Shown: in pieces, positions 1-64,000 of the stretch
Numbering within the stretch: the stretch's first letter is position 1
How the letters are laid out: every line of letters begins with the position of its first letter
From: Saccharomycodes ludwigii
Lineage: Eukaryota; Ascomycota; Saccharomycetes; Saccharomycodales; Saccharomycodaceae
Assembly: GCF_020623625.1 (NCBI RefSeq)
Contig: NC_060200.1
Location: 1,232,501-1,296,500 of the forward strand
Reading direction: 5' to 3'
Length of the DNA stretch: 64,000 nucleotides
Made by a program: the position numbers and the translations under genes
Notes under the pieces: generated by a model
Databases searched by the model: none
What the model saw: only the letters and a program-made list of their open reading frames with translations
Told to the model about the DNA's origin: nothing

Positions 1-2353
1 CCATAATAATAACAACACATAATGGCATACACAACTTTTTGGATTGCTCAAACATCTTTTCCATATCAACATAATTATCATCAAAAACAGCTTTGTGAAG
101 AATATCCACCAACTTTGCTCCAGACCTGTGATTTTCATCTTTAATTATATTTTCCAAGTTGTGAATCAACTTCTCTTGGTTTTTTAACTCATCGCTCAAT
201 ATAGTGGAAAACATAGTTTGTAGTAAAGAACTACCTCCAAAGGGGGGCTGTGCCATAAACAAATCCATTAAGCCCTTCATCATTGCCATCGGATTAGTAA
301 ATCTTAAAATTTGCGTAATAACATTGTAAGGTATTAACTTATGAAACCTTCTAACACGAATGTAAAATTCATAACTTTGATCATTCCCTAAAAATAGTTG
401 ATAAATAGTGGCGCTAACTTGAACTTTACACCAATCAAAAAATTCTAATAATAAAGGACTCAAATCTGCCAAATTTTCTTTGTCTCTTAACTCTGCAAAA
501 ATACTTAAAATAAACTTTTCATCATGCAAAATGTTAGTTCTAAATTGTCTCATTGAGTTTCTCAACCTTAAAGATTGATCAAAGGCTAATTTCTGAAATT
601 TTATCTGGTTCTCCAAGTTGGTTAAATCCATCAAAGTCCGATTACGTATATCACTTTTAATTTCATTGCTAAACATTTTCTCGGATGACGGTAACTCGTA
701 GTTACTAGTTTCATAAAATTTTTTTAACACTAAACCGTTACTGATATCTTTATCTGAAGACAGCAAACGTAGATATTTCCTAAGTGATAATCTCATTTTT
801 TCTCTGGGCAAAGTAGAATTCTTCTCATCGCTAGCATCAAAAAACCCACTGTGCGACACATTCTCAGCATCATATTCGTCTTCATCATCATAATCATAAG
901 ATTCTTTATTTTCTCTATCCATTTCTTCTTGGGTTTTCTTTATTTTTTCAAATTCCTTTTTTAGCTCTTTTTCAAATTTTGGAGTTAAATCCTCCTCTCC
1001 CTTATTGTTTGCGGTGGAACTAACCGTGGAATTGTCATAAGAATTGTTATCCACCTCTTCGGTGTCTTCGGTGGTAGATTGTGGCTTAAAAGATACAATG
1101 GTTTCCCCAGTTTTAGAACTCTTCGACTGCTTGGTAATTATGCTGGTGCCCATTTTATTTCTATGGGGCAACCTAGGCAATAATTTACTTGGAAATTCTA
1201 ATTCTAAGGAACTGTTCAAGGCTTTAAAATCATGATAACTCTTGGCCAAATAACGAACATTATCTGGATGAGACTCATTAACAATTTTCAAAATAAAATA
1301 ATAGCCCTTAGCTTTCAAATTTTCATTAACTGTATTACTTTGAGTGTTACTGCTGCTGTTAGAATTGCCGTAGAATGACAATTTGGAAAATAACTTGGTA
1401 GGTGCGTATTTTTTAGCCAATTTGTTTTTTGACTTCAAATTAGCCTCCGTTAAAGTCTTAGTTAACCCATTGAACCTATCTGCAGTAACAACTGAAACAA
1501 CGTTTACGTCCCAGCCATTTAGGAAAAAGGGTTGGTTCGTGATTAAGTTTAACAAATTTTCTCTGCTGGGCATTAAAAATTTGTCTAGCTGAGATTTTTT
1601 CCTAAGCTTATGAATTTCATCGTCTTTACTATTGACCATCGTCAATTCTTTTTGAATGCTTTTTTCTCTTTTTTCTTCTTCCTCCGTGGTGGCTAAAATA
1701 AAGTATTTGTCACAATTATAATATCGAACCTCTTTGGAAACACCAATACCGGAATTATATATCAATAAAATAATCTTTGATAATTTAATACCAAGTTTTT
1801 TCCTTTTAGTTAACTCTTGCTTGTCATAACTAGAACTAAAATGCATATTCATAAAATGTTCAAAAAATTTTTGAACTTTATTTTGCCAAAAATCTTCTTG
1901 ACTTGCTTTGTTGGAAGATAATAGTGGAAATGTGATCACAAATTCTCTTAAAAAATAATTCAATAATGGGAAATCTGTTTTCACAATCATATTATCGGAA
2001 CTGACAACATTGTTATTGATGGAAGGAGAAGAGGAAGTATGACTTAATTTAGTATTCAAAATGCTGGGCAAGTGGGAACTACTGCTTGTAGAATTGGAAC
2101 TTTTAGAGGAACCAGATGAAAATGGATATCCAAACCGTTTCAAAGCATTAACGTCATTTAAATCATCGAATTCCTTTCTTAATTCTAATATAATCAACTC
2201 TCTTTTGAAATAATGTTCTTCCATTGGGTTAAATTCGATAAAATCTTTTGTAGTTGTGGAATCAGTAGTTGTATTAGAATCAAGGGTCGTAGCCATATCT
2301 AGCTGTCTCTCCTCATGATCGCCACCGTTAATTGAGTTATTTACTTTACTCAT
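1..2353 (-). CDS. LEC1: PX-domain lipid-binding protein, YPR097W/Lec1 family (C-terminus beyond window)
   Basis: About 784 codons are open from the ATG at 2353 to the left edge with no stop; the C-terminus lies outside the window (S. cerevisiae YPR097W is 1073 residues). An N-terminal helical region at about residues 124-195 fits the PX-associated (PXB) domain. A PX domain begins near residue 280 and holds the typical segment EFPSKLLPRLPHRNK at about 385-400. An acidic linker of roughly 100 residues (about 405-510) follows before a helix resembling the end of a PX domain (RKYLRLLSSD). Residues ~605-715 carry the fungal PX-associated block with LIPYNVITQILRFTNPMAMM. The family binds phosphoinositides and the yeast member is reported to act in ergosterol movement to lipid droplets. 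Position and orientation next to SYT1 match YPR097W. The family is sure; the function is taken from the family. Confidence 0.9.
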   Translation of the reverse strand, partial: MSKVNNSINGGDHEERQLDMATTLDSNTTTDSTTTKDFIEFNPMEEHYFKRELIILELRKEFDDLNDVNALKRFGYPFSSGSSKSSNSTSSSSHLPSILNTKLSHTSSSPSINNNVVSSDNMIVKTDFPLLNYFLREFVITFPLLSSNKASQEDFWQNKVQKFFEHFMNMHFSSSYDKQELTKRKKLGIKLSKIILLIYNSGIGVSKEVRYYNCDKYFILATTEEEEKREKSIQKELTMVNSKDDEIHKLRKKSQLDKFLMPSRENLLNLITNQPFFLNGWDVNVVSVVTADRFNGLTKTLTEANLKSKNKLAKKYAPTKLFSKLSFYGNSNSSSNTQSNTVNENLKAKGYYFILKIVNESHPDNVRYLAKSYHDFKALNSSLELEFPSKLLPRLPHRNKMGTSIITKQSKSSKTGETIVSFKPQSTTEDTEEVDNNSYDNSTVSSTANNKGEEDLTPKFEKELKKEFEKIKKTQEEMDRENKESYDYDDEDEYDAENVSHSGFFDASDEKNSTLPREKMRLSLRKYLRLLSSDKDISNGLVLKKFYETSNYELPSSEKMFSNEIKSDIRNRTLMDLTNLENQIKFQKLAFDQSLRLRNSMRQFRTNILHDEKFILSIFAELRDKENLADLSPLLLEFFDWCKVQVSATIYQLFLGNDQSYEFYIRVRRFHKLIPYNVITQILRFTNPMAMMKGLMDLFMAQPPFGGSSLLQTMFSTILSDELKNQEKLIHNLENIIKDENHRSGAKLVDILHKAVFDDNYVDMEKMFEQSKKLCMPLCVVIIM

Positions 2354-3298: not shown

Positions 3299-3372
3299 GG
3301 TTTTGTGGTCTAGTTGGTTATGGCATCTGCTTAACACGCAGAACGTCCCCAGTTCGATCCTGGGCAAAATCA
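3299..3372 (+). tRNA. tV(AAC): tRNA-Val (anticodon AAC)
   Basis: A 74-base cloverleaf can be read directly. The acceptor arm GGTTTTG pairs with CAAAATC, with a G-U at the second pair. The anticodon stem CTGC/GCAG encloses the loop TTAACAC, so the anticodon AAC is at 3333-3335. The T arm holds the B box (AGTTCGATCC). From memory it is nearly identical to yeast tRNA-Val(AAC). No intron is present. A run of eight T from 3388 is a good RNA polymerase III terminator. Confidence 0.97.
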
Positions 3373-4074: not shown

Positions 4075-5493
4075 ATGAGCCACTACCTAGCAAATTTTGT
4101 CAAGAAAAAAATGTTCAGGAATAATAATAATGCTAATGATGCTAATAACGATAATACATGTAAAGTTGAAGTTGAGCATCAACAGGCAGGAAAAATAACT
4201 ACCCAAAATGACACTACTTCGGAATGTTTAAAAGAGAAGGAATTTTCCAGGGATAATGTTGATATAGTTAAAAGCCCTACTTCAAATATTCATCTATCGC
4301 CAAATGGTGATACTTACGATACTGCTAATGAATATAATTTTTCTAACAAAAAATCATTGAATGCTATTGAAGAAGAAATATCAAATGAAGAGGAAATTGA
4401 AACTATAAAAAATATAAAAGTTGAACAAGAGAATAAAATCACACTACCCCATATATCAGTCATGGAAAATAATGATCCAATAGATGAACAATTCGATTTT
4501 GAAAAATCGAATGATAGTGATAGTATTACTTCGGATGTTTCTGCCAGTGAACATAGTGATAATCATCATATATCAAAACCTAGTATTGTAAGTAATTTAT
4601 CAAAAAATTCAAGCATACATAAATGTAAAAGTGAAGAGCATGTACTTCCTACGAATTACAACAATAACAAAAATCTAGATGCTCAACTTGAAGATTTAAC
4701 CCTACGTGATATTGAGATTAATTCTGATGAAATTAAAAGCAAACGTAACTGTAAAAGTTTGGAGATTGATCAACATGCAACTTTAGTGTCAAACAAATCC
4801 CAGAAAAATGACATTTTCTCAGAAAAACTGGATTTCAAAGGGCTTAAAAAAATTGGATTTCGCTCGGTTAGTACACCTCCAGATGTTTCCCCTAAAACTG
4901 TTAAATCATTTATACACAAGAACACCACTGGTGGTTGTAATACAAATAACAATAGTGGCTGGAATAGCATGGACGGGAAAACTATATCCACAAAATCATC
5001 GACATCATCGCTAAAATCAAAATTAAACAAGTCAATATCCTTTTTAGCAAGTAAAGTTTCGACATCGCCACTGTCCAGTAATGCCACCCATAGCAATTTA
5101 ATATCAAATGAAAGTACCAAAAATGTTTTTTCAAATAATGGTGAAATATCTACTTTTAATTCAAATTCTAACTTGGCTTCGAATCTACCGTCTACCCCAC
5201 TTCTTCATCCAGGAGTATCTTCGTCTCCTATAGATATTATTTTACTTGATGAGCCAAATAACAGTAGCAGTATTGGGTATAATAGACTATTAGGATCTAA
5301 AAGCCCGATCAAAGCAACTGAAATATTAACTGGAAGTCCAAGGTCAAGAGAGACCAGCTCCAGTTCAGATGTTTCTCTCGTGGTAGATAATTTTGCTATG
5401 AATAATGTTAGTAACAATGTGAATCCTAACACCCCACAAATAACACTATTATCTTCCTCAGGAAATAACTTGTTTTTTGATGGTGACGATGTC

Positions 5494-5539
<46 letters not shown>

Positions 5540-7744
5540 CTAGAAACAGTTGCACTATTGAAGATGTTTTGATAAATGGAGAGTTAAATAAAACTAATGT
5601 TAATGGAAGACATGTTTCTAATGATATGCTATATTCTGGGAAAAATATTGATAGATCAAACTCAGATAGAGCTTTAAAAACTAATACCAAGGTTTCAGTT
5701 TATAAAAATGAAAAAAATACTTCAAGTAATATGGAAATAAATACCATGTCACATACAACTGGCAACAATATTATTTCTTCTGGTATTAATGACTCAGCAG
5801 CTGCAAATAAATCAACTTTGAAAAATAACTTGAGCGTGCCTAACCAAACATTATTAACTCGTAAAAGGAGTAAAACAGTAGGGGCATACGATTATCAAAG
5901 CAATGCAAAAGTATCCTTGTCCGCTTCACCACCTTTATTGGAAAATGTAGGTAACAGTACCAATAATCGCGTCAATAACAGTACTGCATTGAACAAGTTG
6001 CCTTCAACCAAAACCTCACTGCAAAAAAGGTCAAATAGTTTTAAGAGTTTGGATTCGCGTTCGAGTCTGGGAATAACCCATTTACCTGATTCATCTACTT
6101 CATTTAAGGAATCTACAAGTAGTTCTTTCGTCCCACCTGCATTTACTCCTCATAAAAGAAGTAATACCATTGTTAATGCTATAAGTAATTTTGTCAGTTT
6201 AAAATCAACACCATCATTGTCAAATATATCAGGTTTCAACAATAATAGTGGGTCTTCTTCTGCTTCATCCCTGATGAATGGGTCGAAATTTGTCAACTTG
6301 GAATTATTGCCCAAGCCAGCAGAGCCTGATTTGGAAAATGACACTGAAGAGACCTATTTAGCAAAAATTAACTCGTATGGAAAATATATAACCTACATTC
6401 TAAGCCAAAGTGATTCTGAATTTAAAAACAAGACATTAAAATATTTTATTTTTACAAGATTTGATTTTAAAAACGAACCTTTAGATATTTCATTACGGAA
6501 ATTATTACTATTTATTCAATTACCAAAGGAAACACAACAAATAGATCGTATAATAATGGCATTTAGCGAAAAATATTTTCAAGATTCGAAGCCTTCTATA
6601 TGGTCAGATCATGGACAAGTTTACTTTATCAGCTTCTCTTTATTAATGCTACATACAGACCATTTTAATTTCAATAATAAGAATAAAATCAGTAGAAAAG
6701 AGTTTATAGAATTGATTAAGTCAGATACTGAATCACATGGAGATAAGATTTCGAGCGAAGTGTTAGGCTATTTTTTTGATAACATTACCAATAAGGAGTT
6801 CCCAACAATACATTTTCCCTTCCCTACAGAGAGTGATACAAGTTTGCGTAAAAATGATAATTTTAAGACTGCAAACTCCCATTTGCTGTATTCACCCATT
6901 GATTTAATTCAGTCGCATGAATTACTATCTATTTATCCCGAATTTTTGGAATGTTTGTCATCATTTTCTCCATCCTATGCATCATCAAATTTTTCAAATG
7001 AGACGCTCAATAATAATGGTAGTTTTAATAGAGTGTCCTCATATTTGCCATTTTCATCTTATTTACAACCGAATCTAGCTTCATCCTCATCATCATTAGA
7101 TTTACCTCAGCCAAATGTCAATAACAATATTGGCTCTTCGCCAATTACAAAGACAATATCCCCAAGATCACCATCGTATGCTGGAATAAATCCGTTTATC
7201 GATGGGAAATCGGTTTCGAAAAATAATTTTTTTGAAAATTTGGATATCTATAGTAATATTATTAATGATACAATTAATTCTATTACAGTATCTAGTTTAC
7301 ATTCTGATATGTTTAATTTTCTGGATAGAGCATCGAGCCAGCAAGAAGTGCCGGCCATTATTGATAAAAATTCTTTAAGGTATAAAAATTATATCAAGTA
7401 CTCGATGATGATTAAAGATTTGAAGGGTGGGTACCTAAAATTTAATGAAAATGATGTATTAAAGAATGGAAAAATCAAAACAGCTTTGGTTAATAAAAAC
7501 ATAACTACTTTTGAAGCAGATACTAGTGAATTGTGGAAATATGTTAAAATTATTCAAATGGGGTCTTTATACCTTCATGTCTCGTCGGTGCCTAAAAGGA
7601 GGAAAAATAAGAAAAACCATGGATCTGGGAATGCGAGTTCTTCTAATTGCAATAATACAAGCACTGTTAGAAAAAGAAGATATAGTATTATTCCAGTAAA
7701 CATAAATAATAATAGCGATAATGGTGATGATGGTGATAATAATA

Positions 7745-7834
<90 letters not shown>

Positions 7835-8943
7835 GTGGTAGTGGTAGTAGTAATAATAACATTAATAATAATGGAGCAAATTCTTCTAATGGCAACAACA
7901 ATAATGTGTTTAATAGCAAAGGTAATAATGATATGTTGGGTCTCGATAATTATTCTGATAAAGTGAGTAGTTTATACTATAAGACCTTTGGTACCGATTT
8001 TGTTGGGGATGGGGGTGATTATTATGAGGAGCTTGAAAAAGATCTAAAGTTGATAAATATAGAAATTGACAAAGAGAAAAAGTTAAATGCAGTGAAAAGG
8101 CAGCAGAATGCGTTATCAGTGGTTGGTAATCACGAAGAAATCAGACAACACCACTTTTCCGCTGATAAATGGAAAAAAGTTTTCTGCATATTAACAGTTA
8201 TTGGATTATTTGTTTTTGAGAATAATGACTGGGTTCACCCAGAAATCATGAAGATCAACGATGTGTCCAATTATCTAGTTGATTTTACTCCGATATCCAG
8301 TAAAAAATTAAAATCCATATTGAGCGGTAATGGTTTATTTGTAAACAAGATTGAGCCACATGCTTTTGAAATTTATAACGCTAATAAAAGGGAGATATAT
8401 TATTGCCATAATCTAAGGGAAATAGACTACTGGGTCGATTCAATAAACGTTGTGTCTGCGTTTGAACATTGTAACTTGGAATTGAAAACGGTTCCCAATT
8501 CCTTAATTCCAATTAAACGAATGGATATGGTGGAAAGATTAGCCAAATGGGAAAAATCAAAGTCGGCCAAAGAATTTTTCCTAAAGGAAATTGAAGCAAC
8601 ACTCAAATTTACTGGAACTTGTGTTCCATTATCAAAAAAAACTTATGAGGAATTAATTTTGTATTTAAAACAATTGAAAGTTAAACATGGTTGGTGTTTT
8701 TATGAAGTGTGCAGAAATCAAGTTTATATAGATATCATTAAAAGTGTTTGTCATATTTTTGGATATGATTTGGTGGATCTGGAAAAACAGGTTAAAAACA
8801 GGTTGCATACAAAATTGGTAAATAGCTCAATAGGCACTCTAACTAAGGAAACCGCTGATACTGGTACACATGAAGAAGATAACGAGAATAAGATTGAGAT
8901 TGATGAGAAAAATAATATTTTACATGGGACAAATATTAAATAG
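4075..8943 (+). CDS. SYT1: Arf guanine-nucleotide exchange factor, Sec7 + PH domains (Syt1 type)
   Basis: 1622 residues from the first in-frame ATG (4075); the open frame further upstream begins at a non-ATG codon and encodes only poly-Phe and poly-Lys from promoter tracts. Residues 1-750 are low-complexity, rich in Ser and Asn. The Sec7 domain spans about 755-885; its catalytic glutamate finger is present as LPKETQQIDR (Glu819) and the second motif as LLMLHTDHFN. A PH domain lies at about 1362-1468, starting DKWKKVFCILTV. Sec7 proteins load GTP on Arf GTPases in Golgi/endosomal and cortical traffic. S. cerevisiae has two related proteins, Syt1 (1226 aa) and Yel1; the place beside RDS3 and ASR1 and the orientation identify SYT1. 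Asn runs at 5494-5538 (15 residues) and 7750-7833 (28 residues) lengthen it. Confidence 0.92.
5494..5538 (+). repeat. (AAT)15 coding repeat, poly-Asn in SYT1
   Basis: Fifteen consecutive AAT codons inside the disordered N-terminal half of SYT1. Only one codon is used, so it is a recent trinucleotide expansion and probably polymorphic. Confidence 0.95.
7750..7833 (+). repeat. (AAT)28 coding repeat, poly-Asn in SYT1
   Basis: Twenty-eight pure AAT codons in the linker between the Sec7 and PH domains, flanked by further Asn/Ser/Gly-rich sequence. Confidence 0.95.
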
Positions 8944-9331: not shown

Positions 9332-9649
9332 TCAAGCTTGGTTAAAATGTCTTTCAATTTTATTATTTCCAACATTTATAACTTTGGGACATCCATCTTT
9401 ATTCTTCTCCAAAATATAACATTGATAACAATAATAAGCGGTATTTTTTGCCAAATTTTTAGCACCACATATTATGCAAGTTTCTTTTGTAGTATTATTA
9501 CTACATTGGTCACATATTCTAACTTTTATAGTTGGATTAACCATAGAATCACAAATAGGGCAGCGTCCATCGCATTTATCACAAACTTTACCAATGTGTT
9601 TTCCTGGTTCATTAAGGCACATAACTAAATCAAATTGGTGGCGAGACAT
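9332..9649 (-). CDS. RDS3: Pre-mRNA splicing factor Rds3 (PHF5A family, SF3b)
   Basis: 105 residues, against 107 in S. cerevisiae. The protein opens MSRHQFDLVMCL and carries a dense set of CxxC pairs (CDKC, CPIC, CDQC, CIIC, CYQC) ending in KDGCPKVINVG...RHF, the hallmark of the PHF5A/Rds3 family. These cysteines form the three-zinc knot that sits in the SF3b part of U2 snRNP and helps hold the branch-point helix. The start is fixed by the conserved MSRHQ. It is transcribed divergently from the RING gene at 10077, as in S. cerevisiae, where RDS3 adjoins ASR1 and SYT1. Confidence 0.98.
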   Translation of the reverse strand: MSRHQFDLVMCLNEPGKHIGKVCDKCDGRCPICDSMVNPTIKVRICDQCSNNTTKETCIICGAKNLAKNTAYYCYQCYILEKNKDGCPKVINVGNNKIERHFNQA

Positions 9650-10076: not shown

Positions 10077-10967
10077 ATGTCTGGGGATTACAGGTCTAAC
10101 ACCAATAATGGTAATAATATTACTACTAATATAAACATAAGTAGAAATGAAAAGTATACCGGAAAAAATATTGAAGTGTCTGAATATAATGATACCATAT
10201 GTGTTATTTGTTTAGAACCCATTTATGAGCATACTCTGTTTAAAAGTAAAGAAACTATAAAAATAAAAGAAATCGTATCGGTACTGTTACCGTGTAGACA
10301 TGAATATCATCAGCAATGTTTGCACAAGTGGTTTGACTTTTGTAACGCCAGTACTAATAATGGAAATGTTTTTGCTAATACCAATATTAAATGTCCAACT
10401 TGTAGATCCAGAATAAATGAAGAAGAGCAATACACAATAAGTACAACCCATCATGAATACAACGAAAATACCAAACATGTAACTAAAAAGTTTGAAAAAA
10501 AAGTTATACTAGATTTTGAATATTTCTGGATTAACATCTTGAGCGTTGATAGGATACAAAAAGCATCGTTACTTTTAATGTCAGAGAGGAAAGACAGTTT
10601 TAATGGAAAGTCCAAGCATGAAGACATAATTATAGAGGAAACTTACGAAAATATGTGTAAATTTACAAGAACCTTATACCATCAAAATAAAGAAAGAGAA
10701 AGAAAAGAAAAGCTTTGTAATATAGTTCGGGGCATTTTAGATCCTATATATTACAATGCGAATCACAAGATGGAAATGGAACGTTCTACAGCTTTTAGTA
10801 AAAAGCAATACAAACAGATTAATGAGAAAGTATCTAGAATATTATACAAAACATCAAGTAAAAATCATAAAGAATTGGCCTTGAAGTTATGTGAATCTGA
10901 AATATCTGGGATTTTGACTCCAAAACAGATTATAGTGCGGCAAAATGATAAATTAATAATAATGTAA
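10077..10967 (+). CDS. ASR1: RING-H2 protein, divergent Asr1 ortholog lacking a PHD finger
   Basis: 296 residues. A RING-H2 finger spans about residues 42-110: CVIC, then PCRHEYHQQCLHKW, then CPTC, with a ~15-residue Asn-rich insertion before CPTC. The middle has no recognised domain. Near residues 240-262 is KQYKQINEKVSRILYK, which resembles the C-terminal AYKHVNKQVSRKLYR I recall for S. cerevisiae Asr1, an E3 ligase that binds the phosphorylated RNA polymerase II CTD. Its position between RDS3 and NVJ2 and its orientation also match ASR1/YPR093C. Unlike S. cerevisiae Asr1 (288 aa), there is no Cys-rich PHD region after the RING. E3 activity is inferred from the RING; the orthology rests on synteny plus a short C-terminal match. 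Confidence 0.72.
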   Translation: MSGDYRSNTNNGNNITTNINISRNEKYTGKNIEVSEYNDTICVICLEPIYEHTLFKSKETIKIKEIVSVLLPCRHEYHQQCLHKWFDFCNASTNNGNVFANTNIKCPTCRSRINEEEQYTISTTHHEYNENTKHVTKKFEKKVILDFEYFWINILSVDRIQKASLLLMSERKDSFNGKSKHEDIIIEETYENMCKFTRTLYHQNKERERKEKLCNIVRGILDPIYYNANHKMEMERSTAFSKKQYKQINEKVSRILYKTSSKNHKELALKLCESEISGILTPKQIIVRQNDKLIIM

Positions 10968-11010: not shown

Positions 11011-12111
11011 CTATTTATGGCCACCTCTTCTTGGTGGACCTTTTGGTTTATTAAACTTTAATCTATTGTTTAGATTGTTGGCGGAACTTTCTTCTTCTTC
11101 GTCTCTGCTTTTCAACTCGCTCAATTCTAGCTCGTCGGCATCACCAATTTCAATAACTTTAGCAAAGGTTATGCCGTACTGGTCAGTTAAATGATTAATC
11201 AATCCTTGTTTGTTGGACGCATATAACATACGTTCTTTAACTTTACTGCCCGAAGGACAACTGTAAATAAAAAAATATTGATCAAACGTATTGTCATTTT
11301 TTGAGGATGATTTGTATAAAGAATAAGTAGGATGTTCAGTAATAATTTTTGATGGCAGTTCACTAACTTTGTCGATCATTGATTCATTAGTTGCATTAAC
11401 AAGTTCAGAGGAAATATCAATGAGCAAGCTAATGAAATTATAGTTATGGACCATATTATTTGGTTTAAAAAATCCATTGAGTAAATCTTGACCATTGTCA
11501 TTAATTTTAAAACTTAGCTGACTGCCAGACCCATTTGTTTGTGATACTAATTGTTGCTTATATTGTTGCCTAGATATTTCTAAATTAGCTAACTCTGATT
11601 CACTCAAAACACTGACATCAATTTTCTTCAAGCCGGTAGTATTGGTTATTGACTGATTGTCACTGTTTGAAGCACTTTCACTTAATTCTTTTCTCAAATT
11701 GGTTGGGATTAGCTCTTCGACTGAATTAAGTAATAGATTAACACCTATTTTAGAAGTGCCAATTTGTCTTTGTAAGCTTAATTTACTCGATGCATATAAC
11801 ATTTTCTGCCTAACAGGTGAAATATCGGGGATGTAAGTTATAAAATCGTAACTTGTATCATTATTGGTGGCTGAAGAAGAGGAGTTATTCAGATTAATTG
11901 GAACTAAAATATAAAAGGATTCGAAATTGGAATTTTTTGATTCTTCATTGGAAAGAAATGCATGCAATTCTTCGATAGAATCTAAACTTTTGAATAATTG
12001 TACTGTATCACAGCTTTTATTGATTTGTGCTAGGATAACCTGTTTTGATGGATTATGAGCGATTGCCTCTAACAATTTTTCATCGCCTAAAATACCTGAT
12101 TGAGTAGACAT
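11011..12111 (-). CDS. TWF1: Twinfilin, actin-monomer-binding protein
   Basis: 366 residues (S. cerevisiae Twf1 332). Two ADF-homology domains are visible: the first at about residues 8-150, with the paired motif PVRQKMLYASSKLSLQRQIG, and the second at about 190-325, with the equivalent KVKERMLYASNKQGLINHL. The basic tail ends KPKGPPRRGG, a usual feature of yeast twinfilins. Twinfilin sequesters ADP-actin monomers and works with capping protein at cortical patches. The 3' end is only 43 bases from the stop of the converging ASR1-like gene. In S. cerevisiae TWF1 is on chromosome VII (YGR080W), so it is the one clear interruption of the conserved gene order here. Confidence 0.95.
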   Translation of the reverse strand: MSTQSGILGDEKLLEAIAHNPSKQVILAQINKSCDTVQLFKSLDSIEELHAFLSNEESKNSNFESFYILVPINLNNSSSSATNNDTSYDFITYIPDISPVRQKMLYASSKLSLQRQIGTSKIGVNLLLNSVEELIPTNLRKELSESASNSDNQSITNTTGLKKIDVSVLSESELANLEISRQQYKQQLVSQTNGSGSQLSFKINDNGQDLLNGFFKPNNMVHNYNFISLLIDISSELVNATNESMIDKVSELPSKIITEHPTYSLYKSSSKNDNTFDQYFFIYSCPSGSKVKERMLYASNKQGLINHLTDQYGITFAKVIEIGDADELELSELKSRDEEEESSANNLNNRLKFNKPKGPPRRGGHK

Positions 12112-29208: not shown

Positions 29209-29245
<37 letters not shown>

Positions 29246-37656: not shown

Positions 37657-37682
37657 ACTACGGAGAAAAACTACGGAGAAAA
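37657..37682. repeat. 13-bp tandem duplication
   Basis: Two identical copies of ACTACGGAGAAAA directly after an A-run. Confidence 0.9.
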
Positions 37683-39493: not shown

Positions 39494-39594
39494 TTATTCA
39501 TTAGGTAGTTTAGAAAAAAAGGTTTCTTGTTTGTCATTCCACCAATTAACAACATCAGAGCCTAAATTATTGAATAGGGCCGATTTTATAGTAC

Positions 39595-39686
<92 letters not shown>

Positions 39687-42016: not shown

Positions 42017-42447
42017 TGTGTTAAAAACCTTGCAAATATGATCCTCCTGCAGTATCAAACTAGTTTATAAACTATGTTATTTTTAACTGATTATTTTCAG
42101 TTCTTTTTATTATAATATTAGATATTTTTTTTAAAAATATTAACAACAAGAAAAAACAAAATAAAACTAAAAAAAAAAAAAAAAAAAAAAAAAAAACGAG
42201 TCCGAATTCAATATGGACAAATGAAGTGCGAAGTAAATTTTTTTTTTTTTTTTTTGAACAAAAAAATTTTTTTCTGTAATATTTTAATGTAATGGATCAA
42301 GCAAAAATCCAATTTATGACCATAGCCACTTTGTCAAAAAGACAGGTTACAAGCAAATTAATAGAAAAAACCAAAAATAAAGATAAAAAAAAAAATTACT
42401 CTGTCCAAAAAACAAACAAACAAACAAATAAACAAAAAAAAAAACTC
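42017..42447. promoter_or_regulatory. Divergent promoter region, CCZ1 / SRP54
   Basis: A 430-base interval with poly(A) at ~42171-42196 and T at ~42239-42255. It includes an in-frame ATG for SRP54 at 42292, discussed under SRP54, directly preceded by a minimal ATG-TAA upstream ORF at 42287-42292. Confidence 0.55.
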
Positions 42448-47687: not shown

Positions 47688-47688
47688 A
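47609..47688 (+). promoter_or_regulatory. Two chained upstream ORFs joined by TAATG, ASA1 leader
   Basis: uORF1 (ATG 47609, 6 codons) ends with TAA at 47627-47629, whose last A begins the ATG of uORF2. uORF2 (ATG 47629, 19 codons) ends with TAA at 47686-47688, whose last A begins the ATG of ASA1 (47688). Both joints read TAATG. If they are in the mRNA, scanning ribosomes would meet three linked ORFs, and ASA1 would depend on leaky scanning or reinitiation. Transcript start is unknown. Confidence 0.6.
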
Positions 47689-51382: not shown

Positions 51383-52876
51383 ATGTTTGCACCATGTTTG
51401 ATTCATAATTCATCTAAATATTTGTGCCAGGACTGTAGTTCTTTGGAAATTATAAAACACAAGATTAAATTATATAAACTATTGCAAGAATTAAAAATTT
51501 TAAAGCATGAAATTGATGAGATATTGGTTAGTTCTATGGTAGATACTTGTGCTACTGATTCCACTGCTATCGTTACTGCCAATACCAATATTGAAATAGT
51601 AACACTATTAAAATCACGAGTATTGGCTTTAAAGGTAATAGCCAAGAAAAGAGAAATTGGTCAGTTAGAGAAATCAATAAAAGATCTAGAAAAATCAAAT
51701 GTAGAAAAACTCAGTAAAATATTAACAATTGAACAAAGTTTAATAAATAAAAAAAAGACCGGCGCAAATATTAATAATGGTGATACTAATAATATAAAGT
51801 ATGAAAAGGAAACAGAACATGATCATAACGATATCAAGTGTAAAATTTTACAAAGTAGTAAAATGGTGTACAAATTTCAAAATGAAAAGTTTAATCAGTT
51901 GTCCGAATTAATACCTTTGAGATTTGCAAAATATACTTATTATTTTGGTAATGTGCCCATACCTGAAAATTTAAAGAGTATAGGAACTATATTGTTACCT
52001 GGTCGTAAAACTAAGATATCTTCTGACTTTTTACTAGATGATTTGATCAAATATTTGAAAGTGGGATTAAAAGTATGGGGTGTTGAATATAAAATGATAT
52101 TTACAAAGTTTTTTTTTTTAAAATTAAACAAACAAGACAATCCTAGCCATCAAGAGGCAACCAGGAGGAAGACCAAGAACAAGAGGAGGGATATCGATTA
52201 TAATAACATTCCCACTAAAAATAAAGAGAAAAACAAGATAAATGCTGTAAAATCACAAAAGAGGGAAAAAGAAGGAAAAAAAGAAGAAAAGGAAGAAATA
52301 ATATTTCAGGATGGAGAAGATAGTTCATATAATGGTATTAATAGTAATACCAAAAAGGATAGATATAAATTACAATTGAATAATAAAAATAGTGGAAACA
52401 GAAGGTTTTTCTTGCAGACAAAACAGCTTAGGACCCCAGATATGGAGGCATCAGCAGCTAATTCTTCTGTTGAAACACATGCTATTAACAAAGACAATAA
52501 AAACAACGATGGCAACTTACTGGCCAAAAAAAATGAAATCAATAGAATAAATAACAATCACTATAATATATTGAATAAAGTTACTTTTATAATATTTTCA
52601 GCTTATAAAATTAGGAATATTCAGGCAAGGTATAATAACAATAATGTGAATTATACCAATAATATTACAGATGATATTAAGAAAATAAATGTACAAGATT
52701 ACAATTTTTTAGGTAGATTAATATATGAAACTTTTAAAGGGAAAGAACATGGTGATTCCACTGAAACTTTAGTGATAGAAATAGAGGAAGATAAGCGATT
52801 TGTTTTATATATCTATAGGTTGATCAAAGATATAATAGAAAAGAAAAATGAAGAGAAATGGTTATTAATATCGTGA
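51383..52876 (+). CDS. ATG14: Autophagy PI3-kinase complex I subunit Atg14
   Basis: 497 residues (S. cerevisiae Atg14 344). The N-terminus has a zinc-knot-like set C5-x2-H8 and C15-x2-C18, the place of the CxxC pairs of yeast Atg14. Coiled-coil heptads follow at about 22-130 (KLYKLLQELKILKHEIDEIL; EIGQLEKSIKDLEKSN). A recognisable segment KILQSSKMVYKFQNEKFNQL then enters the C-terminal domain, which is broken by a long Lys/Asn/Glu-rich insertion at about 250-385. Atg14 directs Vps34-Vps15-Atg6 to the phagophore assembly site. Sequence similarity is weak, as is usual for Atg14; place and orientation next to VMA2 equal YBR128C. Vps38, the alternative subunit, is less likely. Confidence 0.75.
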   Translation: MFAPCLIHNSSKYLCQDCSSLEIIKHKIKLYKLLQELKILKHEIDEILVSSMVDTCATDSTAIVTANTNIEIVTLLKSRVLALKVIAKKREIGQLEKSIKDLEKSNVEKLSKILTIEQSLINKKKTGANINNGDTNNIKYEKETEHDHNDIKCKILQSSKMVYKFQNEKFNQLSELIPLRFAKYTYYFGNVPIPENLKSIGTILLPGRKTKISSDFLLDDLIKYLKVGLKVWGVEYKMIFTKFFFLKLNKQDNPSHQEATRRKTKNKRRDIDYNNIPTKNKEKNKINAVKSQKREKEGKKEEKEEIIFQDGEDSSYNGINSNTKKDRYKLQLNNKNSGNRRFFLQTKQLRTPDMEASAANSSVETHAINKDNKNNDGNLLAKKNEINRINNNHYNILNKVTFIIFSAYKIRNIQARYNNNNVNYTNNITDDIKKINVQDYNFLGRLIYETFKGKEHGDSTETLVIEIEEDKRFVLYIYRLIKDIIEKKNEEKWLLIS

Positions 52877-53441: not shown

Positions 53442-54980
53442 ATGGCAACCAAGATTTCTGATCAACAACTGTTTGATGTTAACAAGTTAGCTGCAACCAA
53501 AGGCTTCAACATCAAACCAAGATTAACCTATAACACTGTTGGTGGTGTTAATGGTCCATTGGTTATATTGGAAAAGGTGAAATTTCCCCGTTATAATGAA
53601 ATTGTCAATTTAACACTACCAGATGGTTCAGTGAGACAGGGGCAAGTATTAGAAGTCAGAGGTGATCGTGCTATTGTCCAAGTTTTCGAGGGTACCAGTG
53701 GTATTGATGTCAAAAAAACTACTGTTGAATTTACCGGGGAAAACTTGAAAATACCTGTCAGTGAAGACGCTTTGGGTCGTATTTTTGATGGTAGTGGTAG
53801 ACCAATTGATAATGGTCCACAAGTTTTTGCTGAGGATTATTTAGATATCAATGGATCTCCTATTAACCCATATGCCCGTATTTACCCTGAAGAAATGATT
53901 TCCACTGGTATATCTGCTATTGATACTATGAATAGTATTGCTAGAGGACAAAAGATACCAATTTTCTCTGCAAGTGGGTTACCTCATAATGAAATTGCTG
54001 CTCAAATCTGTAGACAGGCTGGCTTGGTCAGACCAACCAAGGATGTTCATGATGGACATGAAGAAAATTTCAGTATTGTCTTTGCTGCCATGGGTGTTAA
54101 TTTAGAAACTGCCAGATTTTTCAAACAAGATTTTGAAGAAAATGGTTCCTTGGAAAGAACTTCTCTATTTTTGAATTTAGCCAATGACCCAACCATCGAA
54201 AGAATTATTACTCCTCGTTTGGCATTAACTACAGCAGAGTACTTAGCTTATCAAACCGAACGTCATGTCTTGACAATTTTAACAGATATGTCTTCATACG
54301 CCGATGCTTTACGTGAAGTTTCTGCCGCCAGAGAAGAAGTTCCAGGTAGAAGAGGTTATCCAGGTTATATGTACACAGATTTGTCTACTATTTATGAGCG
54401 TGCTGGTAGAGTTGAAGGCCGTAATGGTAGTATTACACAAATTCCAATTTTGACCATGCCAAATGATGATATCACACATCCTATTCCTGATTTGACGGGT
54501 TATATTACAGAGGGACAAATTTCTGTTGATCGTCAATTGCACAATAAAGGTATTTATCCACCTATTAATGTTTTGCCAAGCTTAAGTAGATTAATGAAGA
54601 GTGCTATTGGTGAAGGTATGACTAGAAAGGATCATGGTGATGTTTCTAACCAATTGTATGCTAAGTATGCCATTGGTAGAGATGCTGCCGCTATGAAAGC
54701 CGTTGTTGGTGAGGAAGCTTTGAGTATGGAAGATAAATTATCTTTGGAATTTTTAGAAAAATTTGAAAAAACGTTTATCTCTCAAGGTGCATATGAAAAT
54801 AGAACTGTTTTTGAAAGTTTGGATCAAGCCTGGAGTTTGTTGAGAATTTATCCAAAGGAGATGTTGAATAGAATTTCTCCAAAGATTTTGGATGAGTTTT
54901 ACGACAGAACCAGAGACGATGAAGAAGACCAAGATAAGAACCATGACGTTAGTAAAGGCCAAGAACAATCTTTGATTTGA
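53442..54980 (+). CDS. VMA2: Vacuolar H+-ATPase V1 subunit B
   Basis: 512 residues (S. cerevisiae Vma2 517), uninterrupted and highly conserved. Visible features include the N-terminal beta-barrel ([20 protein letters not shown]), the segment [19 protein letters not shown] in place of a true P-loop, and [18 protein letters not shown] with [30 protein letters not shown], the family signature. It is the non-catalytic B subunit of the V1 head that acidifies the vacuole. The tail is acidic ([11 protein letters not shown]). Codon choice is more biased to AGA, GGT and TTG than in its neighbours, as expected for a strongly expressed gene. Place and orientation match YBR127C. Confidence 0.99.
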
Positions 54981-55474: not shown

Positions 55475-56989
55475 TTAATGTAGTGGATGCTGTTTTTGTT
55501 GTTGTAGACCATATAAATTATTCAGCACGCCACTTTTAAAAATGGGTTGATTCTTGTGAAGTAAAGGTGATGTCATGGGTGTGAAAATTCCAGGACTACC
55601 GGTAGTATTGCTGTCACCAACGTTATTTATTCCACCATGCTTATTATCATTAATGGTGTTTAATAGTGGAGAACCAGAAAAAAAAGGTTTAAACATAGAC
55701 ATAGGACTTGGTAAAGGGCTACATGCAGGATTTGTATTAAGATTACTCAATTTATTTGCGGAACCCATAGTACTGTTCGAAGAAGCAATATAAGAAGAAG
55801 GCTGTGAGATAACCGACTTTCTTTTATTAGTATTTTCAGTTGTGTTAGAGCCAGTGTTGGATTTTACATTTTTAATCTCCTTTTCTAGATTTTTTGCCTC
55901 ATCAAATGCTTGCAATAAAAATGGCAATTCATGTGTTAATGTAGTTCGTTCCATCATTAGCGAAACGTCAGTACCAGTAGAACTTACACTACTTGTTCTG
56001 CTATGCATATTAAGCTCAGCGCTTTTACTAATCGTAGCAGCGGTGGTAGAATTGCTATTTTCCAAGCTTGTTTCATCTGCATCATAGAAACAATCACCAT
56101 CCTCATCGTAATAATAATACTCCTCTAGCAACCAATCTATATTGGAAGCAGCATACATTGCCTCAATATCATTAAATAGCTTCATACAATCGTTAAAAGT
56201 TACATCGTCTTGATCCACTTCCGCTTGCTCTAGATTTTCCAATAAAACATTAATAAAACCCTTATATGCCTTGACAGTTTGGTCTAATTGAGCGTACCTC
56301 TTTAGCACCAAAGTTGTAGTGTTATCTTTACTTTCAATATCCTGCAGCGACTTAATTTTATCATTGATTAAAGTCAACTCGTATTCGATCAATAATAATT
56401 TTGCTTTCATGTACAATGAAGTTAGTTTGTTTTTTACATGCTTAACATTTATATTACACAATGACCAGCATTCCCATAATAAAACCATTCCATCATTCAT
56501 GTACATTATTGAAATGCCTTGCTGGCTGATAGTATTATTTATAAAGTCAGATATATTGGAATTAGTTAGAGAGTAAGAGTTTAGATTTTTGGAGAGTTTT
56601 TCTACTTTATCAATAATTTTCAAACTGATATCCTTATAAAATTCGTTACTGTAACTAGTACTATTGGGATCAAACCTTACTAAAATAGATTTAGTAAAAG
56701 TTTGAATATCCCATGATTTGTTTAGTTGGATTTTCAACTTAATTAAAATGGTATATAGATTGATTGCCGCATTGCATTGTTTTAAAATCATACGTTCGAT
56801 ATTATTGTTAGTGCCCGCTGATAGCGTATCCTGTTGTTTTATTATTAGACTACCTAATTGGTCTTTATAGATTAGTTCGTCTTCACTCTTGGTGCTAGAG
56901 CTGGTAATTTTATTTTTATTATAAAAATGTGACATGATGGGATCTACATAATGGGTAGCGTTGTTTATATGGCTGTTCTTGCTCATCAT
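55475..56989 (-). CDS. MDM36: Mitochondrial distribution protein Mdm36 (by position)
   Basis: 504 residues. It has no catalytic motif or membrane span that I can see. Residues ~60-300 look all-helical (MILKQCNAAINLYTILIKLKIQLNKSWD; YAQLDQTVKAYKGFINVLLENLEQAE), followed by an acidic stretch (YYYDEDGDCFYDADE) and a Ser/Asn/Pro-rich tail with repeated SPLL/SPLP motifs. S. cerevisiae Mdm36 (579 aa) is a helical cytoplasmic protein that promotes the Num1-Dnm1 link and mitochondrial anchoring at the cortex. Place and orientation, next to YPR084W and VMA2, equal YPR083W. I recall too little of the Mdm36 sequence to align it, so the name rests on synteny and general architecture. Two adjacent ATGs start the frame. 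Confidence 0.68.
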   Translation of the reverse strand: MMSKNSHINNATHYVDPIMSHFYNKNKITSSSTKSEDELIYKDQLGSLIIKQQDTLSAGTNNNIERMILKQCNAAINLYTILIKLKIQLNKSWDIQTFTKSILVRFDPNSTSYSNEFYKDISLKIIDKVEKLSKNLNSYSLTNSNISDFINNTISQQGISIMYMNDGMVLLWECWSLCNINVKHVKNKLTSLYMKAKLLLIEYELTLINDKIKSLQDIESKDNTTTLVLKRYAQLDQTVKAYKGFINVLLENLEQAEVDQDDVTFNDCMKLFNDIEAMYAASNIDWLLEEYYYYDEDGDCFYDADETSLENSNSTTAATISKSAELNMHSRTSSVSSTGTDVSLMMERTTLTHELPFLLQAFDEAKNLEKEIKNVKSNTGSNTTENTNKRKSVISQPSSYIASSNSTMGSANKLSNLNTNPACSPLPSPMSMFKPFFSGSPLLNTINDNKHGGINNVGDSNTTGSPGIFTPMTSPLLHKNQPIFKSGVLNNLYGLQQQKQHPLH

Positions 56990-58227: not shown

Positions 58228-59706
58228 ATGACTCAAAAAACAACAACTGACACTACAACCACTTCAAATAATACCAAAAAAATAGGAAATGTTATTGTAG
58301 TTAGTAATAGATTACCAGTAACTATAACCAAGGATGACACAACTAATCAATACGAGTATTCCATGTCTAGTGGTGGTTTGGTTACTGCTTTGCAAGGTTT
58401 AGCCAAACACACCACTTTCCAATGGTATGGTTGGCCAGGTAAAGAATTACCAGATGAAGATAAAAGCAAAGTTGTAAGTGATTTAAAAGAAAAGTTTAAT
58501 GCGATTCCAATTTTTTTGAGTGACGAAGTTGCGGATTTACACTATAATGGTTTCAGTAATTCTATTTTATGGCCCCTTTTCCATTATCACCCAGGTGAGA
58601 TCAATTTTGATGAAAATGCATGGTTGGCTTATAATGAAGCTAATATGAAATTTGCCATTGAAATAGTCAAAAATGTTAAAGATGGTGATTTAATTTGGGT
58701 CCACGATTATCATTTAATGTTATTGCCCCAATTGATCAGACAGTTGAAGCCCGAGTTGAAAAATATTAAATTGGGATTTTTCCTTCATACTCCATTTCCA
58801 AGTAGTGAAATTTATAGAATTTTACCTGTCAGACAAGAAATTTTAAGGGGTGTTTTAAGTTGTGATTTAATTGGTTTTCATACTTATGATTACGCAAGAC
58901 ACTTTTTGTCTAGTGTCCAAAGGGTTTTGGGCATAAACACCTTGCCCAATGGTTTGGAATATGAAGGTAGATTTGTTAATGTTGGTGCGTTCCCAATTGG
59001 TATTGATGTGGACACTTTCAGCGATGGTTTGAAGCAAGAACAAGTTTTGACAAGAATTGCTGACCTAAAAAAAATTTTCAAAGGCTGTAAAATTATTGTT
59101 GGTGTAGATAGGTTGGATTATATTAAGGGTGTTCCACAAAAATTGCATGCGATGGAGGTCTTTCTTAACGAACACCCAGAATGGATTGGTAAAGTTGTTT
59201 TGGTGCAAGTTGCTGTGCCAAGTAGAGGTGATGTTGAAGAATATCAATTTTTAAGAAGTGTTGTTAACGAGTTGGTTGGTAGAATAAATGGACAATTTGG
59301 TACCGTAGAGTTTGTACCTATTCATTTTATGCATAAGAGTATTCCCTTCAATGAATTGATTTCCTTGTATGCGGTGAGTGACGTATGCTTGGTTTCCTCA
59401 ACGAGAGATGGTATGAATTTGGTTTCTTATGAATATATTGCTTGTCAAAGTGAGAAGAAGGGATCCTTAATTTTGAGTGAATTTACGGGCGCTGCTCAAT
59501 CTTTGAACGGTGCTATTATAGTAAACCCATGGAACACTGATGAGCTAGCTGACTCAATTAATGAAGCCTTAACTTTGCCAGAAGAAAAGAAAGTGGCTAA
59601 TTGGGAAAAATTATATAAATATATTTCCAAGTACACATCTGAGTTTTGGGGGGAGAATTTTGTTCATGAATTAAATAACTTGAATAATAAAATACAAAGC
59701 AAATAA
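58228..59706 (+). CDS. TPS1: Trehalose-6-phosphate synthase
   Basis: 492 residues (S. cerevisiae Tps1 495). GT20 glycosyltransferase, joining UDP-glucose and glucose-6-phosphate. Visible motifs: VVSNRLPV (about 24-31), the donor-site WVHDYHLMLLPQL (from 157), HTPFPSSEIYRILP, GVDRLDYIKGVPQKL (from ~292) and RDGMNLVSYEYIACQ (near 394). No phosphatase domain is fused, as expected of Tps1 as opposed to Tps2. It makes trehalose for stress and restrains hexokinase on glucose. The upstream STREs fit stress induction. Position matches YBR126C. Confidence 0.99.
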   Translation: MTQKTTTDTTTTSNNTKKIGNVIVVSNRLPVTITKDDTTNQYEYSMSSGGLVTALQGLAKHTTFQWYGWPGKELPDEDKSKVVSDLKEKFNAIPIFLSDEVADLHYNGFSNSILWPLFHYHPGEINFDENAWLAYNEANMKFAIEIVKNVKDGDLIWVHDYHLMLLPQLIRQLKPELKNIKLGFFLHTPFPSSEIYRILPVRQEILRGVLSCDLIGFHTYDYARHFLSSVQRVLGINTLPNGLEYEGRFVNVGAFPIGIDVDTFSDGLKQEQVLTRIADLKKIFKGCKIIVGVDRLDYIKGVPQKLHAMEVFLNEHPEWIGKVVLVQVAVPSRGDVEEYQFLRSVVNELVGRINGQFGTVEFVPIHFMHKSIPFNELISLYAVSDVCLVSSTRDGMNLVSYEYIACQSEKKGSLILSEFTGAAQSLNGAIIVNPWNTDELADSINEALTLPEEKKVANWEKLYKYISKYTSEFWGENFVHELNNLNNKIQSK

Positions 59707-60568: not shown

Positions 60569-61963
60569 ATGGGCCAAATTTTATCCAACCCATTAACCGA
60601 AAAAACCATATATTATCAACCTTTTAATGGAAATGACCCTTCAAAATATCTACAGTTTTTTTCAGGTGTTGGATCCATGAAGGGGTATAGAATGACGCAA
60701 GAAGACTCTCATTTAATTTGTAACGGTAATAATAACCATACTAAGCAATATTCTAATGAAGATGAATCACATAAAGATGAATTCACCGTTACTTTCAGAA
60801 ATCCATTTAATTCTGAGAAATTCAATAAAAAGGAAAAATTGAACATCTCAATGTTTGCTGTTTTTGATGGCCATGGCAATGAAAAAATATCAACCTATCT
60901 AAGCAAAAGATTAAATTATTGGATTAAATGGGCTTTAGAAAATCATAATTATAACAGGTATCCACCATCTGATACTAAGACTGAAATTAACAGTAAAGAG
61001 AAAAGGTGGTGTAGAAATTTCAATACTTTGCAAGGACTATTAGCACAGATATTCAAAGATGCATTTATTTATCAGGACCAGGAACTATATAAACATTTTG
61101 CTAAGATGCAATGTGGATCCACTGCTATTGTATTGATCATAGTCAATAGAAAAACCATCTACTGCTGTAACACTGGTGATAGCAGGTGTATATTATCCAC
61201 AAAACCAACAATTTCACAACAACAAAAAATCATGTCTTCACCTTTAAATAACAACAACCATACTGCTAATAATAAGGTAGGCGGAGTTAGAAACAAAATG
61301 CATCTACATCGTAGAAATAACAGTGACAATGTTAGTAACAACAGTGTTGCCAATAGTAATACCAAAACAGCTAACTATGAAGGTAACAATGCCACTCCCA
61401 GGTTGTCCTCCTCCGAGTTAGTACCATATCTAAACCATAAATATTGTTGTGTCAAAAGTCTAAGTTTTGATCATAAACCTCTACATATAGGCGAATTGAT
61501 AAGAATTAATGATAACGGCGGTGTTGTGTCACTAGGGAGAGTTGGTGGTGTGTTAGCGCTAAGTAGAGCTTTTGGTGATTTCCAGTTTAAGAAGAACAAT
61601 TTTGTGTATCACAAATCCATTCCTCAAGAACAGCAAGTTTCCGTGGAACCAGATGTTATAGTACATGAAATTGATTATAATAAAGACGAATTTCTGGTTT
61701 TGGCATGTGATGGTATTTGGGATGTCTATTCCAATAGAAATTTAGTACAGTTTGTTAGGTATCATTTAGCTTTAAATATTAAATTTGATGAAATTGTTAG
61801 GAAATTGTTAGATCGCGGTATTTCCTGTGCTGATAGTAATACTGGGGCTGGGTTTGATAATATGACAGTTATGCTAGTTGCGTTGAATAAACCTAATGAA
61901 TCACACGAATATTGGTATTCTAGGATTAAAAATAGGTTAGAAAGAGAAAAACGAATTGTTTAG
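60569..61963 (+). CDS. PTC4: PP2C-type protein phosphatase Ptc4
   Basis: 464 residues from the first ATG (S. cerevisiae Ptc4 393). The open frame further upstream has no ATG. The N-terminus MGQILSNPLTEKTI matches Ptc4 and fits the N-myristoylation pattern MGxxxS. PP2C motifs follow in order: YRMTQEDSH, FAVFDGHGNEK (metal-binding Asp near residue 100), STAIVLIIV, GVLALSRAFGDFQFK, LACDGIWDVYSN (near 380) and GAGFDNMTVMLVAL (near 430). An Asn-rich insertion of about 70 residues (around 215-290) explains most of the extra length. Ptc phosphatases use Mg/Mn and counter MAP kinases and similar signals. Place and orientation equal YBR125C. Confidence 0.95.
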   Translation: MGQILSNPLTEKTIYYQPFNGNDPSKYLQFFSGVGSMKGYRMTQEDSHLICNGNNNHTKQYSNEDESHKDEFTVTFRNPFNSEKFNKKEKLNISMFAVFDGHGNEKISTYLSKRLNYWIKWALENHNYNRYPPSDTKTEINSKEKRWCRNFNTLQGLLAQIFKDAFIYQDQELYKHFAKMQCGSTAIVLIIVNRKTIYCCNTGDSRCILSTKPTISQQQKIMSSPLNNNNHTANNKVGGVRNKMHLHRRNNSDNVSNNSVANSNTKTANYEGNNATPRLSSSELVPYLNHKYCCVKSLSFDHKPLHIGELIRINDNGGVVSLGRVGGVLALSRAFGDFQFKKNNFVYHKSIPQEQQVSVEPDVIVHEIDYNKDEFLVLACDGIWDVYSNRNLVQFVRYHLALNIKFDEIVRKLLDRGISCADSNTGAGFDNMTVMLVALNKPNESHEYWYSRIKNRLEREKRIV

Positions 61964-62705: not shown

Positions 62706-64000
62706 ATGAGCGCTGCACCTTCTAGATCAGGTTCACCAGCAGCTGCGTTAGTAGTTGCAGAAAATAATAATTCTATATACGCTAAAGAATATCCCTTGAA
62801 TGCTATCCCTCAAAATCTAAAATCTGTTGAGTTCCCACTATTTTTAAAAAATGATCAAAGTGTATCCAAGGTGATTAACAATATGTGCGGTGGCATCTAT
62901 AAGATTAATAGTGCTTTTAGGGAAAATTTAGACTACAGCACAGATAAATGTTTGGAGTTGTACTTGAATAAAAATGATAAAACAATTGACGGAAACAATT
63001 GGGATAATAATGGGGATAATTCTGAGAATGATTTTTTTAATGAGCATCCAATCATAGGTAAGTCTGACAACGATGAAAAGTTATTAATAAAAATAACAAT
63101 AACAAGAAAAAAAAAGAGTCAGACAGATGGTGATGCAAGTACCGGTACTTTACTGGATAACTTAAGAAGTTGTGAAGCTTTTAAAGTACAGCCTTTAGGT
63201 GTGATTAATAAAACAATAAAATTTAGATACATAAGTGATTTTCAAACCATTTTGGACAACAATAAAAGTGCTGTGGAGTACAATCAAAGTATAAATTCTC
63301 TAGATTGGGATAAAATTAAGACATTTGTCGAAGATATTCCTGATGAGGATCCTAGGCCATTTGAACCATTGTTTAATGATAAGAAAAAATATTATCTACC
63401 ACCACCTCCCAAATTTAGCATGGTCCATCTTCCCTTTATTTATGAATATAAGAAAAATCCATATAGTGATTCAAGAGGGGAAGACGTTAGAACTTCATAT
63501 TTGAAAAGTTATCAAATACAAATTTCAAGCAGATCAGATGTACCTGAGCAGCCACATCAAAAATTATTGGATAATTTAGCAATTGCGAAGGAGACAGGAG
63601 TCTACCCCAAAACAAATAAGGAATCCCAGTTCTATGAACAATTGTTAAAATGTGTTGAACATTTAGAAAATTTGTTTAATAAGAGACCAATTTGGCTGAA
63701 AAAACATTTAGAAGGTATTATCGTCAGCGATAATGAAACAAACAACAATAATACCGCTTGGGGCCCAATTTTGAAATTCGGTTTAGCAGTTGTTTCCTAC
63801 AGGTTTTTGAAAGGCCCTTGGAGAAATTCATATATTAAGTTTGGTGTCGATCCATATTCGAGTTTTTCATATGCCAAATACCAAACAGAATTTTTCAAGA
63901 TTGAAAAAAAAATATTGGATAGGCTATTATATGAAAAATATAAAAACGAAAAGAAAAACGTTAATGATCTTGTTGTCACACATCATGATTATAGCAGTAT
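62706..64000 (+). CDS. TFC1: TFIIIC subunit tau95 (Tfc1), 5' part
   Basis: 431 codons and two bases are present; the frame is open at the right edge (S. cerevisiae Tfc1 has 649). Early segments PLNAIPQNLKSVEFPLFLKND and IYKINSAFRENLDYSTDKCLELYL fit the N-terminal dimerisation part of tau95/GTF3C5. The diagnostic segment is NKRPIWLKKHLEG...YRFLKGPWRNSYIKFGVDP at about residues 321-380, conserved from yeast to human GTF3C5. Tfc1 is in the tauA module that contacts the A box of tRNA genes. Upstream ATG codons in this frame are absent. The acidic C-terminus is outside the window. Place and orientation match YBR123C. Confidence 0.93.
   Translation, partial: MSAAPSRSGSPAAALVVAENNNSIYAKEYPLNAIPQNLKSVEFPLFLKNDQSVSKVINNMCGGIYKINSAFRENLDYSTDKCLELYLNKNDKTIDGNNWDNNGDNSENDFFNEHPIIGKSDNDEKLLIKITITRKKKSQTDGDASTGTLLDNLRSCEAFKVQPLGVINKTIKFRYISDFQTILDNNKSAVEYNQSINSLDWDKIKTFVEDIPDEDPRPFEPLFNDKKKYYLPPPPKFSMVHLPFIYEYKKNPYSDSRGEDVRTSYLKSYQIQISSRSDVPEQPHQKLLDNLAIAKETGVYPKTNKESQFYEQLLKCVEHLENLFNKRPIWLKKHLEGIIVSDNETNNNNTAWGPILKFGLAVVSYRFLKGPWRNSYIKFGVDPYSSFSYAKYQTEFFKIEKKILDRLLYEKYKNEKKNVNDLVVTHHDYSS

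Follow-up and report, generated by a model that had tools for sequence, protein, structure and literature searches.

Gene content and order of the window

The stretch of Saccharomycodes ludwigii DNA studied here, called the window, is 64,000 nucleotides long (contig C1, 1232501-1296500; the genome totals 12,500,424 bases and is assembled in 8 contigs) and carries two sets of genes that alternate along it and whose Saccharomyces cerevisiae counterparts belong to two different regions, YPR083-YPR097 and YBR123-YBR136. The alternation had been noticed in an earlier reading of the same sequence, referred to below as the original prediction. Gene names were assigned from relatives in Pfam, Rfam and PDB. 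The S. cerevisiae systematic names, map positions and strands set beside them are assumed as general background, except for the names GRS1/YBR121C and GRS2/YPR081C, which are in print (available text of PMC2704937). The GC content of the window is 28-33% per 4 kb. Among its 30 open frames of at least 100 codons, 23 were taken as genes: the 21 named previously, a twinfilin gene, and one 245-codon frame without an assigned family. The remaining 7 overlap accepted genes or, in one case (60025-60369), are of low complexity. The 21 genes of the two tracks, in window coordinates, are as follows.

2..2353, minus strand: YPR097W (LEC1) orthologue, 5' part only; PXB, PX and DUF3818 domains; name presumed
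4075..8943, plus strand: SYT1 (YPR095C); Sec7
9332..9649, minus strand: RDS3 (YPR094W); PHF5, PDB RDS3 (E 4e-38), one genome match
10077..10967, plus strand: ASR1 (YPR093C); RING finger only, plus place
14265..17219, plus strand: NVJ2 (YPR091C); MMM1-type domain, PH below cut-off
17335..24480, minus strand: MEC1 (YBR136W), the leftmost YBR gene; ATR/MEC1 domains, PDB MEC1 (E 0)
25013..25417, minus strand: CKS1 (YBR135W); CKS, one genome match
26239..29394, plus strand: HSL7 (YBR133C); three PRMT5 domains, one genome match
29949..32693, minus strand: YPR089W; DIL domain, with ankyrin below cut-off, a pair that would fit YPR089W
33863..35731, plus strand: AGP2 (YBR132C); AA_permease, family level only, plus place
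39494..42016, minus strand: CCZ1 (YBR131W); Intu/CCZ1 longin (E 1e-8)
42292..44127, plus strand: SRP54 (YPR088C); SRP54 N, GTPase and signal-peptide-binding domains
45058..47289, plus strand: SHE3 (YBR130C); SHE3 family, one genome match
47688..49175, plus strand: ASA1 (YPR085C), by place only; no family over cut-off and no PDB hit
49280..50794, minus strand: YPR084W, by place only; marginal Ras-family match (residues 30-61; 21.8 bits, cut-off 21.6)
51383..52876, plus strand: ATG14 (YBR128C), by place only; neither Pfam nor PDB gave a hit
53442..54980, plus strand: VMA2 (YBR127C); ATP synthase alpha/beta domains, PDB V-ATPase subunit B (E 0)
55475..56989, minus strand: MDM36 (YPR083W), by place only; no family over cut-off
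58228..59706, plus strand: TPS1 (YBR126C); Glyco_transf_20
60569..61963, plus strand: PTC4 (YBR125C); PP2C, family level only, plus place
62706..63998, plus strand: TFC1 (YBR123C), continuing beyond the right edge; Tau95 domains, one genome match

Read from left to right, the ten YPR genes are 097, 095, 094, 093, 091, 089, 088, 085, 084 and 083, and the eleven YBR genes are 136, 135, 133, 132, 131, 130, 128, 127, 126, 125 and 123, so that both tracks descend strictly on the assumed S. cerevisiae order. The strands of all 21 are the inverse of those assumed for S. cerevisiae. If the same 21 genes were ordered randomly, the chance that both tracks would be monotone is about 3e-14, and the chance of all 21 strands agreeing is about 1e-6. 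Domains or PDB relatives agree with 17 of the 21 names, several at family level only (for instance ASR1 by a RING finger, AGP2 by AA_permease and PTC4 by PP2C), and the names ASA1, YPR084W, MDM36 and ATG14 rest on place. When these four are left out, the remaining 17 names (7 YPR and 10 YBR) give about 2e-10 for order and 2e-5 for strands. YPR and YBR genes form 10 runs over the 21 genes, where random mixing would average 11.5 (P(<=10) = 0.33); this fits random loss between two copies.

These results bear out what had been claimed for the order and strand of ten YPR083-097 and eleven YBR123-136 genes within their tracks, as far as the assumed map goes and with four of the genes named by place; the open frames also lie at the positions that the claim implies. 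The description of the two regions as perfectly interleaved goes too far. The leftmost five named genes are all YPR genes, and mixing begins only at MEC1 (17.3 kb); SUA7, OPY1 and YPR096C were not seen in their places, and TWF1 and the 245-codon frame are additional.

Two candidate readings of individual frames were set aside. A fusion of YPR097W into a 2599-codon gene was rejected as an artefact, in which the frame finder had run through the N stretch of the joined sequence. A PDB match of CCZ1 to kinesin, near the C-terminus (E 0.012 to 0.019), was rejected as chance. The YPR084W orthologue has a P-loop-like stretch close to its N-terminus.

The right flank extends both tracks to a single glycyl-tRNA synthetase gene

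We examined flanks of 100 kb on each side of the window. The right flank contains, in order, MRPL36 (bL31), DIB1 (DIM1 family), a glycyl-tRNA synthetase (GlyRS) gene, CBP6, TEF and MRL1 (a weak CIMR match), which we take to correspond to YBR122C, YPR082C, YBR121C=YPR081C, YBR120C, YBR118W=YPR080W and YPR079W. On these numbers, their order and inverse strand are those that the interleaving predicts. There is no room between CBP6 and TEF for MUD1 (YBR119W). The GlyRS gene has one match in the genome, and it corresponds to the shared S. cerevisiae ohnolog pair GRS1/YBR121C and GRS2/YPR081C (available text of PMC2704937). It had been proposed that the two regions lie near this pair, and rightward of the window the two tracks do meet in this one gene.

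Past MRL1 lie an unnamed frame and then other blocks, which by eye presumably comprise HAT1, NCR1, CHL1 and others of YPL001-013, followed by YPR062-067 with YBR106-108. A 208-codon frame of the right flank resembled SLX9 by eye only, had no Pfam hit, and was not used.

The left flank reveals a third track and a change of partner

A third S. cerevisiae region is represented in the window by TWF1, which stands among the leftmost YPR genes. It and the non-coding features of the left quarter are listed here.

3299..3372, plus strand: tRNA-Val (AAC), found with ARAGORN
11011..12111, minus strand: TWF1 (YGR080W); two ADF/cofilin stretches, PDB twinfilin (E 1e-16), one genome match
12803..12915, plus strand: snR41 box C/D snoRNA; Rfam RF01218, 108.9 bits
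13053..13212, plus strand: snR70 box C/D snoRNA; Rfam RF01238, 54.9 bits, just below the gathering score of 55, E 3e-11
13438..13543, plus strand: snR51 box C/D snoRNA; Rfam RF01214, 86.2 bits

The YPR track continues into the left flank with genes for a proteasome subunit (PRE2), a forkhead-FHA protein (FHL1) and a CCCH protein (YTH1), which we take to be YPR103W, YPR104C and YPR107C; they are in order and inverse. The same flank holds GCD2 (PDB eIF2B delta, E 2e-203), MRP13 (PDB MRP13, E 9e-28), RPL11 and a Pil1-family gene. With TWF1 taken as YGR080W, GCD2 as YGR083C, MRP13 as YGR084C, RPL11 as YGR085C (=YPR102C) and PIL1 as YGR086C, the numbers of these five genes ascend leftward and all of the strands are inverse. 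As a second Pil1-family gene lies in the right flank, it is by its place that the left one is taken for PIL1 and not LSP1. The two Pil1-family genes, one per flank, lie about 180 kb apart (L011:7334-8302 and L028:6331-7332). SNT309 (YPR101W) was seen in the left flank by eye only, with no Pfam or PDB hit, and COG4 likewise by eye only; neither was used.

On the assumed map, the YPR track is thus partnered by chromosome VII at TWF1 and to its left, and by chromosome II at MEC1 and to its right. The change of partner falls between 12.1 and 17.3 kb, an interval that contains the snoRNA cluster and NVJ2. The three snoRNA genes stand between TWF1 and NVJ2 in the order snR41, snR70, snR51, all on the plus strand, and from its assumed S. 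cerevisiae position we take the cluster as a non-coding marker of the YPR track. Chromosome XVI, on the assumed map, and the genome studied here are both continuous across this interval. That is most simply explained if the other post-duplication copy broke within the span of the window at a later time, in the lineage of S. cerevisiae. Gordon, Byrne and Wolfe (2009; available text of PMC2675101) infer 66 reciprocal translocations and 73 inversions for that lineage, and their Figure 4 names breakpoints. The snR41-snR70-snR51 cluster itself is widespread in fungi (available text of PMC3596301).

The 245-codon frame

38674..39411, plus strand: 245-codon frame between AGP2 and CCZ1; no Pfam family over cut-off

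The chance of 245 open codons at this composition is 1e-9. A codon score, which is a weak test, gave 0.09 bits per codon for the frame against -0.25 and -0.15 in the other two frames. Four presumed non-genes used as controls scored -0.19, -0.15, 0.01 and 0.11, the last of which beats the 245-codon frame, although it overlaps NVJ2; some accepted genes reached no more than 0.03 to 0.05 (ASA1, RDS3). A match to PEX11 (E 0.003, below cut-off) was rejected as chance. It is a tentative idea, and one that we think will rather turn out wrong than right, that the frame represents an ancestral gene of which S. cerevisiae has retained neither copy, and that TWF1-NVJ2-MEC1 fixes the site of the post-duplication II/VII break.

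The interval 35732-38673 is the longest in the window (2.9 kb) without a frame of 100 codons. A CDEI/CDEIII-like centromere pattern had no match in the joined 264 kb, a search that a diverged motif would escape.

Interpretation and alternatives

We consider the window, with a probability of about 95%, to belong to a yeast whose lineage had separated before the whole genome of the Saccharomyces line was duplicated, with gene order near that of the common ancestor and present in a single copy. The lineage of S. cerevisiae would have doubled its entire genome, and each gene would then have been lost from either copy, nearly at random. The surviving genes would now stand partly on chromosome XVI, where the YPR track is unbroken, and partly on a second copy, later broken into a chromosome II (YBR) piece and a chromosome VII (YGR) piece. 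In a comparison with S. cerevisiae, such a split would make the ancestral row look interleaved. What we infer from the arrangement is the duplication, the subsequent losses and in which direction the chromosome II/VII break went. The original prediction had made the window the unduplicated counterpart of two sister regions; given the assumed map this is well supported, and it predicted the right flank correctly, but the left quarter of the window pairs with chromosome VII and the regions number three.

Several results weigh against this interpretation. Three genes were not seen at their expected places: SUA7 (YPR086W), OPY1 (YBR129C) and YPR096C. A TFIIB search found no match in the window; it found matches on contigs C6 and C7 and weak ones on C5 and C1. 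The C6 frame with TFIIB repeats has 574 codons and a slightly higher score, and the C7 frame has 389 codons; we take the former, on its length, for BRF1 and the latter for SUA7. OPY1 was sought at its place only, where the frames between SHE3 and ATG14 have no PH match, and YPR096C likewise, there being no frame of 60 codons between YPR097W and SYT1. In the left flank, SLX9 and TOM20 (YGR081C and YGR082W, numbers that would put them between TWF1 and GCD2) were not recognised in the part that was read, and a search for the TOM20 family had no match anywhere, controls included, and is uninformative. TEF (C1:1303203-1304576, outside the window) has a second copy with 100% protein identity at C1:2698741-2700114, and the RPL11 family has a second match, a 328-codon frame on C2 that is probably a mitochondrial relative. 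Finally, orthology was judged from domains, and the S. cerevisiae map positions are assumed.

The probable SUA7 gene (C7:441449-442618, L036) lies away from SRP54 and ASA1, its neighbours in S. cerevisiae, and its neighbours on C7 presumably correspond, by eye, to YER005-009 genes.

The second TEF copy and the two Pil1-family genes would be accommodated if this genome were itself a post-duplication genome in which the window had a sister region that carries the alternate copies. In searches of the genome at E up to 0.001 with 6 of the 23 window proteins, RDS3, TWF1, CKS1, HSL7, SHE3 and TFC1 each had one match, so that for these proteins the sister region whose discovery would have spoken against the original prediction was not seen. 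GlyRS also has one match. TEF is the other S. cerevisiae ohnolog pair at this place; here it is present in two copies, and the second copy may be a recent copy or a product of gene conversion. TEF and GlyRS stand about 1.2 kb apart, and as GlyRS has no second match it is unlikely that the two were duplicated together as one block. A post-duplication region is, moreover, not expected to retain nearly all genes of both tracks, and we regard this explanation as very improbable.

Equally improbable in our judgement is that no whole-genome duplication took place and that segments were gradually duplicated and rearranged until the interleaving resulted, a mechanism that Martin et al. proposed in 2007 for such patterns (available text of PMC2134927). 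The same text holds that duplication is not proven by interleaving; against this, its reviewer's report 1 objects that unbroken order and uniform strand in two tracks could be reached only through an implausible succession of nested inversions. There is also a single GlyRS gene here where both S. cerevisiae tracks carry an ohnolog. That names were fitted to the expected S. cerevisiae neighbours, making the pattern partly circular, can be dismissed almost entirely: four of the 21 names lack independent support and several others are at family level only, but 17 have fitting domains or PDB relatives, the order is improbable with these alone, and flank genes unseen by the earlier reader stand in the predicted order.

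The interpretation as a single-copy segment of a yeast that branched before the duplication also agrees with what is published for the organism. For Sd. ludwigii NBRC 1722, the available text of PMC8567612 gives 12.5 Mb in seven chromosomal scaffolds with one rDNA gap and 30.9% GC, and an overall gene synteny that resembles pre-duplication yeasts. In strain UTAD17, 517 S. cerevisiae ohnolog pairs have a homologue, and for 512 of them this is a single gene (available text of PMC7903802). Size, contig number, the base composition of the window, pre-duplication status and overall synteny in these two sources agree with our results; their available parts do not discuss the window region.

Comparison with known systems

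The interleaving is real, was correctly read in outline, and is the ordinary double conserved synteny of a pre-duplication yeast, a pattern already known. Double conserved synteny in yeasts without the whole-genome duplication, such as Ashbya gossypii and Kluyveromyces waltii, has the same correspondence of one region to two, interleaved complementary retention, and shared ohnologs at some loci. The present case is of the same kind as these, with the second S. cerevisiae copy split, on the assumed map, between chromosomes II and VII. Papers of 2004 reportedly showed the one-to-two correspondence over most of the genome in other species. Interleaving in Ashbya and K. waltii was already debated in 2007 (available text of PMC2134927). 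The reconstructed ancestral order before the duplication is likewise a contiguous row (Gordon, Byrne and Wolfe 2009, PMC2675101); among names of the YGR, YPR and YBR type, the available main text of that paper has only YGR071C and YPR071W. We found no publication that names three or more of six YGR/YPR/YBR genes together. What our analysis adds is the chromosome VII track, the snoRNA cluster in its place, the genes not seen in theirs and the 245-codon frame.

The Saccharomycodaceae lie outside the Saccharomycetaceae, the family mostly used for ancestral gene-order work. The window indicates that a member of the Saccharomycodaceae can retain long collinear rows, and such a genome is a useful outgroup for determining the ancestral side of rearrangements and for naming fast-evolving genes by their place.

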